64,000 nt of DNA from Halorussus gelatinilyticus (lineage in GTDB: Archaea > Halobacteriota > Halobacteria > Halobacteriales > Haladaptataceae). Both the position numbers and the translations under genes were made by a program. Shown here in pieces: positions 38,885 to 47,249 of the stretch. Each line of letters begins with the position of its first letter. Position 1 is the first letter of the stretch. The stretch spans positions 2,728,001 to 2,792,000 of the forward strand of contig NZ_CP096658.1 of the NCBI RefSeq assembly GCF_023238445.1, given 5' to 3'. Under the pieces are notes generated by a model that was not told where the DNA came from, did no database searches, and saw nothing but the letters and a program-made list of their open reading frames with translations.

Positions 38885-39817
38885 ATGGTTCACGGCCACG
38901 GAGAGCGGAACATTTCTGACGAACAGCGCCGGGAGTTCCTCAAGGCACTCGGTGCCGGGGGCGCGGTCGCGGCCGGGGGCGCGACCCTCGGCGACGTCCG
39001 GGACGCAATCGAATCGGGAACGAGCGACGAACTCGCGTCCGTCGGCGAAGCCATCCGAAACGACTTGGCGGGGTCGCTCGACGCCGACCTGCTGGCGAAG
39101 GGACGCGCCGACCTCGCCGGTGCGGCGGCCGACCTGACCGCAGTACCCGACCGGGGAGTCCCCGGCATGAACGAGGGGCCGCGCGAGGAGTTCGCCGCGG
39201 TCGCGTCCGCCGCCCGCCCGACCTACGAACACCTCGGCGAAGTCGGCTTCTTCGAGAGCACGACCGAGCGACTGCCGGAGTTCGCGCCCGAGTACATCGA
39301 GGACAGCGTTCGCCGATTCGTCGTGAGCGACGGGGCGGCCACGCTGTCTGACCACGGCTTCTCCGAGCAGGAACTCGTAGACCTGCTGGCGACGGTGGTG
39401 GGCCACCGCGAGCGCATCGGCGAGCGCCACTGGGTCGCCACCGACCAACTCCCCCGCGAGCAGATGGAGATGGTCGAACACGTCCCCGCGATGACGAAGG
39501 CGGCCGCGGGCGGCGTCCTGCTCTGGTTGGAGGACTTGGACGAACACATCTGGACGAACGCGGTGTTACTGACCGACGACATCCTGGCCGACGCGGCGTG
39601 GGACGCCCGCGCGATGGCGGCCGGGTTCGACCTGATGGCCGACGGCGCGCGGCGCATCGCCGAAGCCGACGGTACGGGCGACGAGGAACTCGCGGGCTTG
39701 CTGTCGTCCGGGTTCGCGCTACAGACCATCGCGCAGAACCTGCTGCCCGAGGACGCCTACTGGATAGACGAGCAGGCCCGCGCCGAGCGAAACAACGACT
39801 TGGAGATTCCTAACTAA
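38885..39817 (+). CDS. Tat-signal haloarchaeal protein, probable partner of the quinoprotein
   Basis: 310 residues. The N-terminus contains E-Q-R-R-E-F-L-K-A-L-G-A-G-G-A-V-A-A-G-G-A, a twin-arginine signal starting near residue 14. The mature part is helical, acidic and rich in Ala/Asp/Glu, with no cysteines and no known cofactor motif. It ends 2 bp before the cupredoxin-PQQ dehydrogenase gene, which has no signal of its own. The two may therefore be exported as a complex. The size and helical content recall small subunits of periplasmic dehydrogenases, but no family was recognised. Confidence 0.78.
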   Translation: MVHGHGERNISDEQRREFLKALGAGGAVAAGGATLGDVRDAIESGTSDELASVGEAIRNDLAGSLDADLLAKGRADLAGAAADLTAVPDRGVPGMNEGPREEFAAVASAARPTYEHLGEVGFFESTTERLPEFAPEYIEDSVRRFVVSDGAATLSDHGFSEQELVDLLATVVGHRERIGERHWVATDQLPREQMEMVEHVPAMTKAAAGGVLLWLEDLDEHIWTNAVLLTDDILADAAWDARAMAAGFDLMADGARRIAEADGTGDEELAGLLSSGFALQTIAQNLLPEDAYWIDEQARAERNNDLEIPN

Positions 39818-39819
39818 CG

Positions 39820-41922
39820 ATGCCCGCCGATATCGACCCCGAGAACGAGGAGATCGAACCGGAAGAGCGACCGCACTACATCGACACCGGGCCGGAGGCC
39901 CGCGGCGAGGACGAACACGTCCGCTTCATGCCGGAGTACGACACGGAGTTCGTCTTCGGCGGCGGCATCTCCGGGTGGCACGCGCGCCAGCCACAGCGGT
40001 TGGAGGGGCAGGTCAACCCGACCCTCAACCTGGAGGCCGGCAACCGGTACCGGGTCCGCTGGGAGAACATCGACGGCGCACCGCACAACTTCGTCATCCA
40101 GGACGCGGACGGCAACAGACTGGTGGGGACCGACGTGTACTCCTCGGAGGGCGCGACGGCTAACTTGGTGTTCACCGCGACCGAGGAGATGTCCCAGTAC
40201 ATCTGCACCATCCACCCCAACTCGATGGTCGGCAACATCGAAATCGCTGGCGAGGAGCCGAGCCCCAACGCACAGCAGGGCGGCCAACTCCAACAGCCGC
40301 CGGGTCCGGGTGCGGCGGAGGGCGACATACCGAAGCTCTCGGTGACGACGAACATGCTCCGAGAGGACGGCGAGCGCCGCGACTCGTGGCTCCACTACGA
40401 CAAGGGGCTCGGCCAGCGCGGGTTCACGCCCGTCGACCGACTCGACCCCGAGAACGTCGCCAGCCTCGAACAGAAGTACACCATCCCGACCGACAGCGCG
40501 GGCATCGAGACGAACCCCATAATCGTCCCGAGCGACCCGCCGGTGATGTACTACACGACGAGCAACCTCTCCATCGTCGCGGCCAACGCCAGAAACGGGA
40601 AGAAGTACTGGCAGTTCAAGTACGCGCTCCCGGAGGACGCGGTGGGCCAGACCGGCCGGAACCGGGGCGTGGCGGTCTGGAAGGACAAGGTGTTCTTCGC
40701 CACGACCGACACGCATCTAGTGGCGCTCAACCGCTACACCGGCGAGAAGGAGTGGGACACCAACATGCTGACCGAGCGCCAGAAGCGCGAGATGGAGTAC
40801 CCCAAGCGGATGTCCATCAGCCAAGCGCCCATCGCCTACGACGGCCGGATTCTCGTGGGCATGAGCGGTGACTTCGGGGGCTGGTGCGTCGCCTCCTCGG
40901 TCGATGCGGAGTCCGGCGACGTCCGGTGGACGGTCAACATGGCACCGGAGGACGCGTGGGTAGACGAGAGTTGGCGGTTCGCCAGCGCCGCGCCGTGGAT
41001 GAGTCCCTCCATCGACCCCGAGACGAACAACGTCTTCTACGCGGTGGGCAACCCCTGCCCGATGATGAACGGACTCGTCCGGCCCGGACCGAACCACCAC
41101 TCGAACTCCATCGTCGCGGTCGATCTGGACTCGGGCGACATCGAGTGGGCCAGCCAGCAGATTCCCCACGAACTGTGGGACTACGACAGCCACGCCACCC
41201 CGACCGTCTTCGACATCGAGGTAGACGGCGAGACCCGGCGGGCGGTCTCGACCGACCAGAAGGCCGGCTGGACCTACGTCTACGACGCCGAGACCGGCCG
41301 ACTCCTCGAACGCACCGCGCCGTGGACCAAGCAGGACCACGAGTGGGCCGAACAGTTCCTCGCGCTCCCGCCGCGGGGCGAAGAGAACGCCGCGACCTGC
41401 TGGCCGGGCACCATCGGCGCGACCGAGTGGCCGCCGTGCGCCTACGACCCCGACACCGGCATGCGGTACATCGCGGCGGTCGAGGCGGCCCAGCGGGTGT
41501 CCTACGACCCCGACTGGGAGTACACGACCGAAGGCGACATCTCGCTCGCGGAGGGAGGGTCGCGGTTGGCCTCCGAGGACACGACCCACAGCGCGTACGT
41601 GCAGGCGGTGGACCCCGCGAGCGGCGACCTCGCGTGGCGGACCGAACTCCCCGACGTCAACCCCGAGTGGTCCCACTGGCGCATCTGGCCGGGCGGGACG
41701 ACCGCGACCGCGGGCGGCGTCCTGTTCGTTCCCTCGTCGGGCGGGCACGTCTACGCGCTCGACACCGAGACCGGCGAGCGCATCTGGAGCGCCCAGACCG
41801 ACGCCGACCGCATCACCCCCGCGCCGGTGGTGTGGGACGACCCGGTCGAGCAGACCCAGTACGTCGCGGTGGCCGCCGACGACGAGATAACCGTCTGGTC
41901 CTCCGGCGGATTCGAGGACTGA
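39820..41922 (+). CDS. Cupredoxin-fused PQQ-dependent dehydrogenase-like quinoprotein
   Basis: 700 residues. A cupredoxin domain at about 40-150 has ligands His89, Cys129, His132 and Met136 (PHNFVI; YICTIHPNSM). After a Gln/Pro linker, an eight-bladed quinoprotein propeller follows (about 200-695). It keeps the GNP segment near 408 and the WDYD motif at 453-456, which carries the family's proposed catalytic aspartate, with Q-K-A-G-W-T-Y-V after it. The fused copper domain could accept electrons from PQQ internally. In the position of the usual Glu ligand it reads S-G-D-F-G-G-W. No signal peptide precedes it. A coupled Tat gene lies 2 bp upstream. Alcohol or sugar substrate unknown. Confidence 0.85.
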   Translation: MPADIDPENEEIEPEERPHYIDTGPEARGEDEHVRFMPEYDTEFVFGGGISGWHARQPQRLEGQVNPTLNLEAGNRYRVRWENIDGAPHNFVIQDADGNRLVGTDVYSSEGATANLVFTATEEMSQYICTIHPNSMVGNIEIAGEEPSPNAQQGGQLQQPPGPGAAEGDIPKLSVTTNMLREDGERRDSWLHYDKGLGQRGFTPVDRLDPENVASLEQKYTIPTDSAGIETNPIIVPSDPPVMYYTTSNLSIVAANARNGKKYWQFKYALPEDAVGQTGRNRGVAVWKDKVFFATTDTHLVALNRYTGEKEWDTNMLTERQKREMEYPKRMSISQAPIAYDGRILVGMSGDFGGWCVASSVDAESGDVRWTVNMAPEDAWVDESWRFASAAPWMSPSIDPETNNVFYAVGNPCPMMNGLVRPGPNHHSNSIVAVDLDSGDIEWASQQIPHELWDYDSHATPTVFDIEVDGETRRAVSTDQKAGWTYVYDAETGRLLERTAPWTKQDHEWAEQFLALPPRGEENAATCWPGTIGATEWPPCAYDPDTGMRYIAAVEAAQRVSYDPDWEYTTEGDISLAEGGSRLASEDTTHSAYVQAVDPASGDLAWRTELPDVNPEWSHWRIWPGGTTATAGGVLFVPSSGGHVYALDTETGERIWSAQTDADRITPAPVVWDDPVEQTQYVAVAADDEITVWSSGGFED

Positions 41923-43252: not shown

Positions 43253-43398
43253 ACTCGGACGGAGTCGGGTTCACCGACACGACTGAGTTCGACCGGACCC
43301 GCCGACGGAACTGGGTCCGATCGGCCCATCCGCTCGGTCTCGCCCCGCGGTCTGCCCGAACGATTATGTCGCTGACAACCGTGGTTCCGACGGAAACG

Positions 43399-44529
43399 AT
43401 GGGGGAGACACGACGACGATTCCTTCGAGCGACAGGTGCCTCGGCGGTCGGACTGACGGGAGCGGTCGGCGTCACGTCCGGCCAGTCGAGCGGCGTCTCG
43501 CTGCTGCTCAACTGGAAACCGAACGGGCTTCACGTGCCCTACTACGCCGCGAAGGCGCGGGGGTACTACGACGAGCAGGGCGTGAACCTGACCGGAATCG
43601 AGGCCGGGCAGGGGTCGGACTTCGCGGCCAAGCAGGTCGGACTGGGTAACACCCCGTTCGCCGTCACCGGCGCGAGCCAGATACTCAACGTCAACTCGCG
43701 GGGCCTCTCGCCCCGGTCGGTCGGCGTGATGATGCAACGGAGTCCGGTGGTGGTGTTCACCACCGGCGAGACCTTCGGCGGCGAGTTGACCAGCGCGGAC
43801 CAGCTCGCGGGCAAGACGGTCGGCACCGGTCCCGGAATGGTGAAGATTCTCACGAAACTGCTCCTCGAACGGCAGGGCGTCCTCTCGGAGGTCGAACTCG
43901 TAGACACCGGGTTCGACACGGTTCAGCAACTGCTCAGCGGGAAGATAGATGCCGCTGGCGGCGTCTTCGCGGACGCGGTGGTCGCCCGCCGGAAGGCCGA
44001 GACGGTCTCTTCGATTCCGGTGGCGAAGACCATCCCGTCCTACGGCCACGTCGTGGCCGCGAACGACGAGTTCGCGGCCGAGAACCCCGAGACCGTCCGC
44101 GGGTTCCTGAACGCGACGGCTCGGGGCGCGGCGTGGGCGACGGACAACCCCGAGCGGGCGACCGAGGCGCTAATCGCGGCCAACCCCGCCGTCTCGGAGA
44201 CCGCCGACGTCCAGCGCGCGAAGTGGGTCGAGATGGCGAGTCGGTACGTCCTCTCGGAGTCGGTCCGCCAGCACGCGTTCGGGTGGAGCGACGCGAAACC
44301 GTGGCAGACGATGTACGAGGCGCTCCGCGGGGCGGAACTCCTCGGCGGCGACGTGGACCCCTCGACCGTCTGGACCAACGAGTACCTCGACACGGACTAC
44401 CGGTACGTCGGGGAGTACGCCGCGCAGGTCACGCCGCCCGAGTCGAATCAGACTACGACCGGCGGTAGCGGAGGGAACTCCACGACCACTGGTGGCGGGG
44501 CAAACTCCGCAACCACTGGCCAGAACTGA
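43399..44529 (+). CDS. ABC transporter substrate-binding protein (NMT1/THI5/SsuA-like)
   Basis: 376 residues. The Tat signal is METRRRFLRATG-like (M-G-E-T-R-R-R-F-L-R-A-T-G-A-S-A-V-G-L). The NMT1-type fold follows: L-L-N-W-K-P-N-G-L-H-V-P-Y-Y-A-A-K-A-R-G-Y-Y, G-Q-G-S-D-F and G-T-G-P-G-M-V-K. The Asn/Thr/Gly-rich tail is likely glycosylated. Members bind thiamine precursors, sulfonates or nitrate-like anions; the ligand here is not clear. The second in-frame ATG was chosen because it puts the RRRFL motif at the very N-terminus; ATG 43366 is possible. The last base is shared with the permease start. Confidence 0.88.
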   Translation: MGETRRRFLRATGASAVGLTGAVGVTSGQSSGVSLLLNWKPNGLHVPYYAAKARGYYDEQGVNLTGIEAGQGSDFAAKQVGLGNTPFAVTGASQILNVNSRGLSPRSVGVMMQRSPVVVFTTGETFGGELTSADQLAGKTVGTGPGMVKILTKLLLERQGVLSEVELVDTGFDTVQQLLSGKIDAAGGVFADAVVARRKAETVSSIPVAKTIPSYGHVVAANDEFAAENPETVRGFLNATARGAAWATDNPERATEALIAANPAVSETADVQRAKWVEMASRYVLSESVRQHAFGWSDAKPWQTMYEALRGAELLGGDVDPSTVWTNEYLDTDYRYVGEYAAQVTPPESNQTTTGGSGGNSTTTGGGANSATTGQN

Positions 44530-45404
44530 TGACCGCCTCCGGGCCGCCCGCGCCCGACTCAGGGGCGTCAGGCGCGGACGTGTCGGGCACGGACGCGTCA
44601 GGCACAGGCGCGTCGAGTGCGAGCGCGTCGGACGCTCGCGTCCGACGCGCGGCCAGTTCCGCGTCCGCGCTGGGCGCGCGCGCCGGGCCGCCGCTCGCCG
44701 TCGCCGTCCTCGCGCTGGTCGCGTGGTGGGCCGCCGCCCGGACCGCCGCGGTCCCGGACGTCATCTTCCCGACGCCGTTCGACGTGGGCGCGGCGCTCGC
44801 GGCCCACTGGCCCGCGCTCGTCGGCGCGGCGGGCGTCACGGCGGCCACGGCGGGCCTCGGCGTCGGCGGAGGCGCGCTCGTCGGCGTCCTGCTGGCGGCG
44901 GCGATGACAGCCTCCGAGACGGCTCGCGCGGTGGTCCGGCCCTACGTCGTCGCGCTCCGGGTCGTCCCGGTCGTCGCCGTCGCGCCGCTGCTCTTTCGGT
45001 GGTTCGGCGACGGCGTTCCGGCGCGGGCGCTCCTCGCCGGCACGCTCGCGGTCTTCCCGGTGACGATAGCGACCCATCAGGGACTGGCCGCGACGCCCGA
45101 CGAGTACCTCGCGCTGGCGCGCTCGGTCGGTGCCTCGTCGGCGGCCCAGTTCCTCCGGGTTCGGCTCCCCGCGGCCGCGCCCCAAGCGTTCGCCGGGCTG
45201 AAAATCGCGGCCGCCGCGGGCGTCGTCGGCGCGGTGGTCGCGGAGTTCCTGACGCTGAAGGCGGGCATCGGCTACCGCGTCTTCCGGGCCTCGACGCGGC
45301 TCCAGACCGCCCGGATGGTCGCCGCGCTCGGCGTGCTGGCGCTGTTGGGGGTCGCGTTCTACCTCCTGCCGGCGCTGGTCGAGCGTCGGGTCGATCGGGG
45401 GTAG
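44529..45404 (+). CDS. ABC transporter permease (SsuC/TauC-like)
   Basis: 291 residues with an Ala/Ser-rich acidic N-terminal extension (about 1-50), then about six hydrophobic helices. The EAA-like coupling loop near 195-215 reads E-Y-L-A-L-A-R-S-V-G-A-S-S-A-A-Q-F-L. It starts on the last base of the binding-protein stop (TGATG). It resembles the convergent permease at 45420-46172 (for example G-A-V-V-A-E-F-L-T-L-K-A-G-I-G-Y against G-A-V-V-A-E-W-I-L-T-D-E-G-L-G-Y). The two probably form a heterodimeric channel. Confidence 0.88.
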   Translation: MTASGPPAPDSGASGADVSGTDASGTGASSASASDARVRRAASSASALGARAGPPLAVAVLALVAWWAAARTAAVPDVIFPTPFDVGAALAAHWPALVGAAGVTAATAGLGVGGGALVGVLLAAAMTASETARAVVRPYVVALRVVPVVAVAPLLFRWFGDGVPARALLAGTLAVFPVTIATHQGLAATPDEYLALARSVGASSAAQFLRVRLPAAAPQAFAGLKIAAAAGVVGAVVAEFLTLKAGIGYRVFRASTRLQTARMVAALGVLALLGVAFYLLPALVERRVDRG

Positions 45405-45419
45405 GGTCGATCGGGGTAG

Positions 45420-46172
45420 TCACCACGAGAGCCGGTTCTCGGCCGCCGCGACCGCGCCGTAGATAGCCATCCCCTCCGCGAAGAGGACGACGACGGCCGC
45501 CAGCACCACGTCGGTCTGGACGTTCTCCGAACCGACGAGGACCAGATACCCCAGTCCCTCGTCGGTCAGAATCCACTCCGCCACGACCGCGCCGACGACC
45601 GCGAGCGCGGCCGACTGCTTCAGGCCCGCGAAGACGTCGGGGAGCGCGGCCGGGACCCGGACGCGGAGGAACGTCTCGACGGGACCCGCGTCCACCGACC
45701 GGAGCAGGTCGAGGTACTCCTCGGGCGTCTCCCGGAGACCCGACGCCGAACTCACGAACGTCGGGAAGAACGTGATGAGCGCGACGAACGTCGTCGCGGT
45801 CCCCGCGCCGGTTCCGAGGTAGACCAGCAGGAGCGGTGCGACCGCGATTTTCGGCAGGACGCGCAACGTGACGAGGTAGGGAGCGAGCGCGTGCCGGAGG
45901 AACGTCGAGTGGACCACGACCCCGGCCGCGACGAACCCCCCGAGGACGCCGACCGCGCCGCCGGTGAGAATCGTCTCCAGCGTAATCGCCGCGTTCCGGA
46001 GGTAGAGACCCGGCCGCGCGACCAGTCGGTCTGCGACGGCGACGGGGGACGGCAGGAGATAGGGCGGCACGTCCAGCAGACCGACGACGGCCCACCACGC
46101 GAGGACGCCGACGGCGAGCGCGCCCGCCGGGAGCGAGAGGGTCGCGGCCGGTACGCGGTCGGCGTAGCTCAC
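45420..46172 (-). CDS. ABC transporter permease (second subunit)
   Basis: 250 residues with six hydrophobic helices and the coupling loop E-E-Y-L-D-L-L-R-S-V-D-A-G-P-V-E-T-F-L. Start GTG at 46172 overlaps the stop of a 35-codon micro-ORF. The frame is open upstream to the ATPase gene, but no other start codon is present there. It is convergent with the other permease gene, 15 bp apart. Together with the ATPase upstream it forms the minus-strand half of the importer. Confidence 0.88.
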   Translation of the reverse strand: MSYADRVPAATLSLPAGALAVGVLAWWAVVGLLDVPPYLLPSPVAVADRLVARPGLYLRNAAITLETILTGGAVGVLGGFVAAGVVVHSTFLRHALAPYLVTLRVLPKIAVAPLLLVYLGTGAGTATTFVALITFFPTFVSSASGLRETPEEYLDLLRSVDAGPVETFLRVRVPAALPDVFAGLKQSAALAVVGAVVAEWILTDEGLGYLVLVGSENVQTDVVLAAVVVLFAEGMAIYGAVAAAENRLSW

Positions 46173-46276
46173 GCCCTCTCCTCCGTCGAAATCGGTCCCG
46201 TCGCGGTTCCGGTTGGCGGGGTTCGGGTCAACGGGGTTCCAGTCAGCGGAGATCCGGTGAGCGGAGGCCCGGTCAT
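46169..46276 (-). CDS. Coupled Pro/Thr/Gly-rich micro-ORF between ABC ATPase and permease
   Basis: 35 codons. The ATG overlaps the ATPase stop (ATGA) and the TGA overlaps the permease GTG (GTGA). The product is a low-complexity peptide of repeated [SA/T]-P-L-T-G units (M-T-G-P-P-L-T-G-S-P-L-T-G-T-P-L-T). The exact coupling at both ends suggests that ribosomes translate through it to reach the permease. It may be a translational bridge rather than a functional peptide. Confidence 0.4.
   Translation of the reverse strand: MTGPPLTGSPLTGTPLTRTPPTGTATGPISTEERA
46192..46266 (-). repeat. Five degenerate 15-bp tandem repeats
   Basis: On the minus strand the units read CTCCGCTCACCGGAT, CTCCGCTGACTGGAA, CCCCGTTGACCCGAA, CCCCGCCAACCGGAA and a weaker fifth. 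The period is five codons, which keeps the micro-ORF frame open. The array fills the gap between the ATPase and permease genes. Confidence 0.6.
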
Positions 46277-47112
46277 CGAAGCTCGTACCCCTCGTGGAGC
46301 GCGGCCCGGACGCGCGCGACCTGTTCTTGGAACGCCGCGGTGCCGTACACGGATTCGTCGCGCGGTCGGGGGAGTTCCACGTCGAAGACGCCCTCGATTT
46401 CGCCGGGCTGGTCGCTCATCACGACGCACCTGTCGGCGAGGAAGACCGCCTCGGGGACGCTGTGAGTCACGAACAGGACGGTCTTGCGCTCCTCGCGCCA
46501 GACGCGCCGGACCTCGACGCCCATCTCCTCGCGGGTGAGTTCGTCGAGTTCGCCGAACGGTTCGTCCATCAGGAGAACCGAGGCCCCGAGGTGGAGCGCC
46601 CGCGCGATGGCGACGCGCTGGCGCATCCCGCCCGAGAGTTCGGCGGGTCTGGCGTCCGCGAACCCCGCGAGACCGACCGTCTCCAGCAGGTCGCGCGCTC
46701 GCTCGCGGTCCGGGGGCTTCCCGGCCAGCTTCCGCAGGAAGACGACGTTTTCGAGCGCGGACTTCCACGGGAGCAGGGCGTGGCGCTGGAAGACGAAGCC
46801 GAACTCGCCGGCTTCCCTCGCGCGGTCCGGCGGATGGCCGCCGACGCTGACGGTGCCCGCGGTCGGCGACTGGAGCCCGCCGACGACCCGGAGCGTGGTC
46901 GTCTTCCCGCACCCCGACGGTCCGATGACCGTGACGAACTCGCCGTCCTCGACCCGCAAATCCACGTCTGCGAGCGCCCGGACTCCCTCGAAATCGACGC
47001 TCACGCCGTCGAGTCGAATGGCCGTTCGGGGCGATTCGTCAGTATCGCCGTGTTGGTCGCTCTCGCGCTCCGATTCCGCCGTCGCTCGCGCGCCGGGTTC
47101 GTCTCCCGCCAT
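46273..47112 (-). CDS. ABC transporter ATP-binding protein (SsuB/TauB-like)
   Basis: 279 residues. Walker A is IGPSGCGKTTTLRVVGG, the Q-loop F-V-F-Q-R-H-A-L-L-P-W-K, the signature ELSGGMRQRVAIARAL, Walker B LLMDEPFGELD, and the H-loop FVTHSVPEA. The Q-loop and LPW motif are typical of sulfonate/taurine/nitrate-type importers. Start ATG at 47112 (M-A-G-D-E-P-G-A-R) with an acidic leader. It is upstream of the micro-ORF and permease on the minus strand. It probably energises both permeases encoded here. Confidence 0.93.
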   Translation of the reverse strand: MAGDEPGARATAESERESDQHGDTDESPRTAIRLDGVSVDFEGVRALADVDLRVEDGEFVTVIGPSGCGKTTTLRVVGGLQSPTAGTVSVGGHPPDRAREAGEFGFVFQRHALLPWKSALENVVFLRKLAGKPPDRERARDLLETVGLAGFADARPAELSGGMRQRVAIARALHLGASVLLMDEPFGELDELTREEMGVEVRRVWREERKTVLFVTHSVPEAVFLADRCVVMSDQPGEIEGVFDVELPRPRDESVYGTAAFQEQVARVRAALHEGYELR

Positions 47113-47249
47113 CGAGTTCGTGGAACGTAACGACCCGGAGCCATAGGTGGCTTTCGCCCGCCGGGGCCGCGCTCGCACGACGACCCGCGGTTCGCGCGAC
47201 CATCTCCGGTGGGGAGACTCGTCGGTTCGACGCGGCCGCTGGCTCTCGG

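Follow-up and report, generated by a model that had tools for sequence, protein, structure and literature searches.

To our knowledge, only a few Tat hitchhiking systems have been studied well, most of them in bacteria. In the FAD-glucose dehydrogenase of Burkholderia cepacia, the gamma subunit (Gluconate_2-dh3, PF13618) is a Tat hitchhiker protein: it is small and entirely helical, bears a Tat signal, is paired with the catalytic subunit and is held to be necessary for secretion of that subunit (PMC6719666). For the two-subunit haloarchaeal nitrate reductase NarGH, passage of the dimer on the one [ST]RRxFLK-type Tat signal of NarG has been proposed (PMC8301774). The PQQ-dependent alcohol dehydrogenases (TIGR03075; PedH, 6zcv; XoxF) combine a propeller with a metal-binding Asn, a catalytic Asp and a lanthanide-type D-x-D, a motif held to be diagnostic of lanthanide-type enzymes (PMC11996626).

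The gene pair described here, encoding a helical partner and a quinoprotein, resembles each of these systems in the features named and differs from them in others. The passenger of the gamma subunit is a GMC flavoenzyme rather than a propeller, and the gamma subunit has 121 mature residues as compared with about 270 in the partner. There is no detectable sequence relation between the two: the partner has no PF13618 match at E ≤ 1, and hhalign gave a probability of 1.5% against nine haloarchaeal members of that family. In NarGH the signal is on the catalytic subunit, whereas here it is on a partner without a recognised catalytic domain. Unlike the window enzyme, the bacterial PQQ alcohol dehydrogenases have their own N-terminal signal and, in two loci, a cytochrome c gene directly downstream. 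The mechanism of Tat hitchhiking is already known; new in the present system would be a carrier family with no discernible link to PF13618, a propeller enzyme carried as the passenger, the fusion of an acceptor domain to the enzyme in one genus, and a series of natural variants that place the signal on different subunits.

Gene Organization and the Partner Protein

The window, the whole stretch of 64,000 nucleotides that was analysed, comes from a haloarchaeal genome whose one contig is 3.67 Mb long. The partner gene (38885..39817, + strand; ATG at 38885, stop at 39815-39817) encodes an all-helical protein of 310 residues that bears a Tat signal and belongs to a conserved family. A two-base spacer (39818..39819, + strand) separates its stop codon from the start of the cupredoxin-quinoprotein fusion (39820..41922, + strand; ATG at 39820, stop at 41920-41922), which has 700 residues and no signal peptide. 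These coordinates and the helices predicted by AlphaFold2 confirm the initial annotation, which described a helical protein with the sequence RREFLKALG, encoded by a gene 2 bp upstream of the quinoprotein gene; its description of the 700-residue copper and propeller fusion as lacking a visible signal peptide is likewise correct. An upstream start that would give the quinoprotein its own signal, named there as grounds for refutation, does not exist at the window gene because the reading frame extends no more than two codons beyond the ATG on its 5' side ('LTM'); this check did not refute the proposal. A second pair is present in the same genome at C1:1835960-1838480. No structured RNA was found near the pair.

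The Tat signal region of the partner comprises residues 10–36 (38912..38992, + strand; ISDEQRREFLKALGAGGAVAAGGATLG), in which RREFLKALG occupies residues 15–23 and the two Arg codons lie at 38927-38932. TIGR01409 only just exceeds its cut-off (16.9 as compared with 16.7 bits), and PF10518 is below its cut-off (16.4 as compared with 22.7). An RRx[FLIVMW] motif followed by at least 12 uncharged residues within the first 45 positions arose in 203 of 200000 shuffles of the partner (0.1%). In the signal-bearing relatives, which are only about 35% identical to each other, RR and Leu19 are present in 25 of 25 sequences and Phe18 in 24 of 25; judged from these sequences, the signal is under constraint.

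The body of the partner (38990..39814, + strand) is modelled by AlphaFold2 as helices only, with a mean pLDDT of 83.8 and a pTM of 0.85. Neither Pfam nor NCBIfam has a family that covers it. The PDB offers no confident counterpart: Foldseek gave no match at E ≤ 0.001, and the best VIA match (Z 7.5) is within the noise expected for helical bundles. PF13618 is absent among the structural matches obtained with Foldseek and VIA-align, all of which are weak. A public Halomarina record labels the partner 'hypothetical protein' and calls the enzyme a 'PQQ-binding-like beta-propeller repeat protein', and a literature search found no paper describing the pair.

The Cupredoxin-Quinoprotein Fusion

The quinoprotein comprises an N-terminal type-1 copper (cupredoxin) domain (residues 41–145; 39940..40254, + strand), a Gln/Pro/Gly-rich linker recognised from the sequence (40255..40323, + strand), and a propeller of the PQQ-dehydrogenase type (residues 169–693; 40324..41898, + strand), assigned from PF01011 (E 1.5e-58) and from relatives in the PDB. 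The Pfam Copper-bind score of the copper domain is slightly under the cut-off (19.3 as compared with 21.2), and the type-1 set of His, Cys, His and Met ligands is complete: His89 (40084-40086), Cys129 (40204-40206), His132 (40213-40215) and Met136 (40225-40227). This domain is 39–48% identical to stand-alone cupredoxins of the same genome and at most 47% identical to those beside the pairs of relatives. The Tat-exported cupredoxins of haloarchaea (halocyanin type) have a signal, whereas the window copper domain is fused and has none of its own.

The propeller retains several residues of the PQQ alcohol dehydrogenases. Asn411 (41050..41052, + strand), the counterpart of their metal-ligand Asn, is invariant in the family; Asp454-Tyr-Asp456 (41179..41187, + strand), which provides the catalytic Asp and the second Asp of D-x-D, is invariant in 39 relatives; and Lys481 is also invariant. 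Other features differ. The adjacent Cys-Cys pair that forms a disulfide over PQQ, present in 58 of 86 relatives, is absent in the window clade (residues 269–283; 40624..40668, + strand; ALPEDAVGQTGRNRG). Comparison with relatives indicates that Asp351 (40870..40872, + strand) replaces the metal-ligand Glu, so the metal-ligand set consists of the expected Asn and Asp with Asp351 in place of Glu. TIGR03075 matches the protein with E 5.4e-84 and 282.7 bits, under its curated cut-off of 480.05.

PqqE was not found over the cut-off in any of 293 genomes, and 288 of the 293 contain sub-cut-off relatives only. A PqqC search of the window's own genome gave no match, but no positive control matched either. 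Cells can acquire PQQ from their surroundings, and for the window protein the cofactor would be PQQ together with either Ca or a lanthanide, the PQQ being probably obtained in this way. As judged from the sequence, the use of PQQ is plausible yet doubtful, because the Cys-Cys pair is missing, Asp stands for the metal-ligand Glu, and the sampled genomes have no recognisable PqqE. The PQQ chemistry assumed in the initial annotation is thus its weak point; the propeller is clear and the four copper ligands are present.

The same three observations would fit a cofactor-free propeller ('empty quinoprotein') acting as a scaffold or sensor beside the copper domain, and TIGR04528, which represents the empty quinoprotein group, also matches the window protein (E 1.2e-73, 248.6 bits, under its cut-off of 650). 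TIGR03075 nevertheless outscores TIGR04528, with both below their cut-offs, and the invariance of Asn411, Asp454, Asp456 and Lys481 and the possibility of PQQ uptake also argue for an enzyme with cofactor. We consider an empty propeller unlikely rather than implausible; it concerns the enzyme and not its export.

Conservation of the Pair

Searching 293 Halobacteriales genomes at E ≤ 1e-60 gave 71 quinoprotein matches, of which 69 have the partner as the immediately preceding gene on the same strand. Both exceptions come from one 77%-complete genome. The gap between the two genes in relatives is mostly −4 to +7 bases. Among 393 genomes sampled across the phylum, only those of Halobacteriales yielded the partner, and all 25 matches on GTDB contigs are from Halobacteria; the window clade includes a named relative, Halorussus halobius. 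The trees of partner and quinoprotein agree, with a mirror-tree r of 0.89 that is uncorrected for species history. The gene pairing, whose conservation the initial annotation proposed to search for, is nearly obligate, and the results strongly support partner and quinoprotein as an obligate pair.

A few loci depart from the usual arrangement. At L104 (G133:C83), from an incomplete genome, partner and quinoprotein are divergently oriented, in contrast to the usual placement of the partner upstream on the same strand. A partner fragment without a quinoprotein (L170, G124:C13:68956-69300), close to the window clade at 71%, is probably what is left of a pair that was lost. At L082:7439-9129 and L084:6621-7238 the quinoprotein is interrupted into a split frame, owing to either a frameshift or an error in sequencing.

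Distribution of Export Signals

Eighty-nine distinct pairs were scanned for signals, and 86 pairs were analysed on trees. An RR signal is absent from all 89 quinoproteins, whose N termini are hydrophilic, the highest mean hydropathy over 12 residues being 1.04; the proposal that the signal is carried by the partner alone is upheld in this respect. The six bacterial relatives have a signal-like N terminus of their own. About half of the partners in the 89 pairs bear a signal, consisting of RRxFLK and an uncharged run of 12–16 residues. In the signal-less group the same aligned segment lacks the run and mostly lacks RR; the partner of L179 has an intermediate sequence and was counted as signal-less. 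In total, 45 of the 86 pairs have no usable Tat signal on the partner, and the partner is therefore more than a signal carrier.

On both the quinoprotein tree and the tree of partner bodies, the signal state switches twice. With six bacterial PQQ alcohol dehydrogenases as the outgroup, the groups without a signal fall in nested positions, and the signal was probably lost twice rather than gained; this direction is probable and not certain because the outgroup branches are long.

Linked and Fused Cupredoxins

In 21 pairs a gene for a Tat-cupredoxin lies directly downstream of the quinoprotein. Seven of these are behind signal-bearing pairs (L078, L079, L080, L099, L100, L178 and L182), and 14 are behind signal-less pairs, namely 12 of a fifteen-member subclade together with L088 and L179. 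The other three members of that subclade have no readable downstream frame. One downstream Tat-cupredoxin has a PGF-CTERM surface anchor. In the genus of the window, the cupredoxin is fused to the quinoprotein in 8 of 18 genomes. Because other clades have a separate Tat-cupredoxin gene directly downstream, the window protein appears to be a fusion of an enzyme with its likely electron acceptor, and these linked and fused cupredoxins lend support to the initial suggestion that the copper domain accepts electrons.

A further 28 pairs lack a signal on the partner and, in readable flanks, also lack a neighbouring Tat-cupredoxin. No other Tat signal recurs in the loci of this signal-less 28-member subclade, save that of an ABC binding protein in some. 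For this reason some members of the family may stay cytoplasmic; the group may have turned cytoplasmic, or a cupredoxin gene at another place in the genome may serve it.

Probable Co-export of the Quinoprotein

Co-export of the quinoprotein by means of the Tat signal of its partner is the best reading of these results and, in our judgement, a probable one. From the gene order, the pairing, the positions of the signals, the copper ligands and the fused and unfused forms, we infer a physical complex that would depend on Tat. An AlphaFold2 model of the L078 pair, read through in frame with the stop as Gly, reached a pTM of only 0.63 with 27 rows and speaks neither for nor against an interface. 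The helical partner would bind the folded quinoprotein in the cytoplasm, and its RR signal would carry the quinoprotein, which has none, through the Tat translocase. Outside, the propeller would oxidise a small substrate and pass electrons to the type-1 copper, with the fused domain, joined at the N terminus of the enzyme, replacing the separate Tat-exported cupredoxin of related lineages. The enzyme should be outside because the likely acceptors are, as seen in the cytochrome c of the bacterial loci, the Tat-cupredoxins of haloarchaea and the PGF-CTERM anchor. The proposal in the initial annotation accordingly stands in its pairing, its partner-only signal and its likely acceptor, but the partner is more than a carrier, as the 45 pairs indicate, and the PQQ use is doubtful.

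The RR segment could alternatively be an ordinary N-terminal helix, with both proteins cytoplasmic and the partner a structural or maturation subunit. The segment does persist in 45 pairs without RR or a hydrophobic run, AlphaFold2 builds residues 12–21 of the partner as a fairly confident helix, and the Tat scores are marginal. Against it, RR, Phe18 and Leu19 are invariant or nearly so only where the uncharged run of 12–16 residues is kept and decay together with it elsewhere, the signal state switches only twice on the tree, and the adjoining cupredoxins bear clear Tat signals. We regard this alternative as improbable. Very improbable is separate export, in which the partner is exported alone and outside matures or docks a quinoprotein that leaves by another route, such as a non-classical signal or lysis: the L078 model did not show an interface, but no hydrophobic or RR segment was found in any of the 89 quinoproteins, and a signal-free Sec or Tat route would be exceptional.

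Both signal-losing lineages include pairs with a downstream Tat-cupredoxin, which could take the same complex out of the cell, and this suggests that in a folded enzyme of several subunits the export signal passes in evolution from one subunit to another, the signal-less partner being kept as a structural subunit. We put this forward tentatively, as a possibility somewhat short of probable; it rests on two losses only and is a pattern, not a statistical proof. It suggests that a complex needs no more than one signal, which may change hands. The natural variants of this archaeal family have the signal on the partner only, on the partner and the copper protein, on the copper protein only, or apparently nowhere, and they therefore make it directly testable whose signal takes a folded complex out and whether an escort still serves after its own signal has gone. 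This series of signal positions is more interesting than the single pair. The family also places quinoproteins with the lanthanide-type D-x-D, and copper proteins that replace cytochrome c as likely acceptors, in archaea without recognisable PqqE.

Neighboring Genes

An ABC transporter of the NMT1/SsuA-like type, with a Tat substrate-binding protein, two permeases and an ATPase, is encoded 1.4 kb downstream of the pair (43366-47178 of the window). In several other clades (L076, L077, L078, L079, L107, L108 and L110), similar ABC binding proteins with 41–61% identity are encoded no more than about 8 kb from the pair, and possibly hint at the substrate of the quinoprotein. At L083:3700-5568, and also at L081, L084, L085, L101, L102 and L105, the opposite strand near the pair encodes a Tat-cupredoxin fused to a quinoprotein of the glucose/sorbosone dehydrogenase type (PF07995), which is an independent cupredoxin-quinoprotein fusion. 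The downstream Tat-cupredoxin at L100:4581-5774 also contains a CHRD domain (PF07452), an unusual combination.
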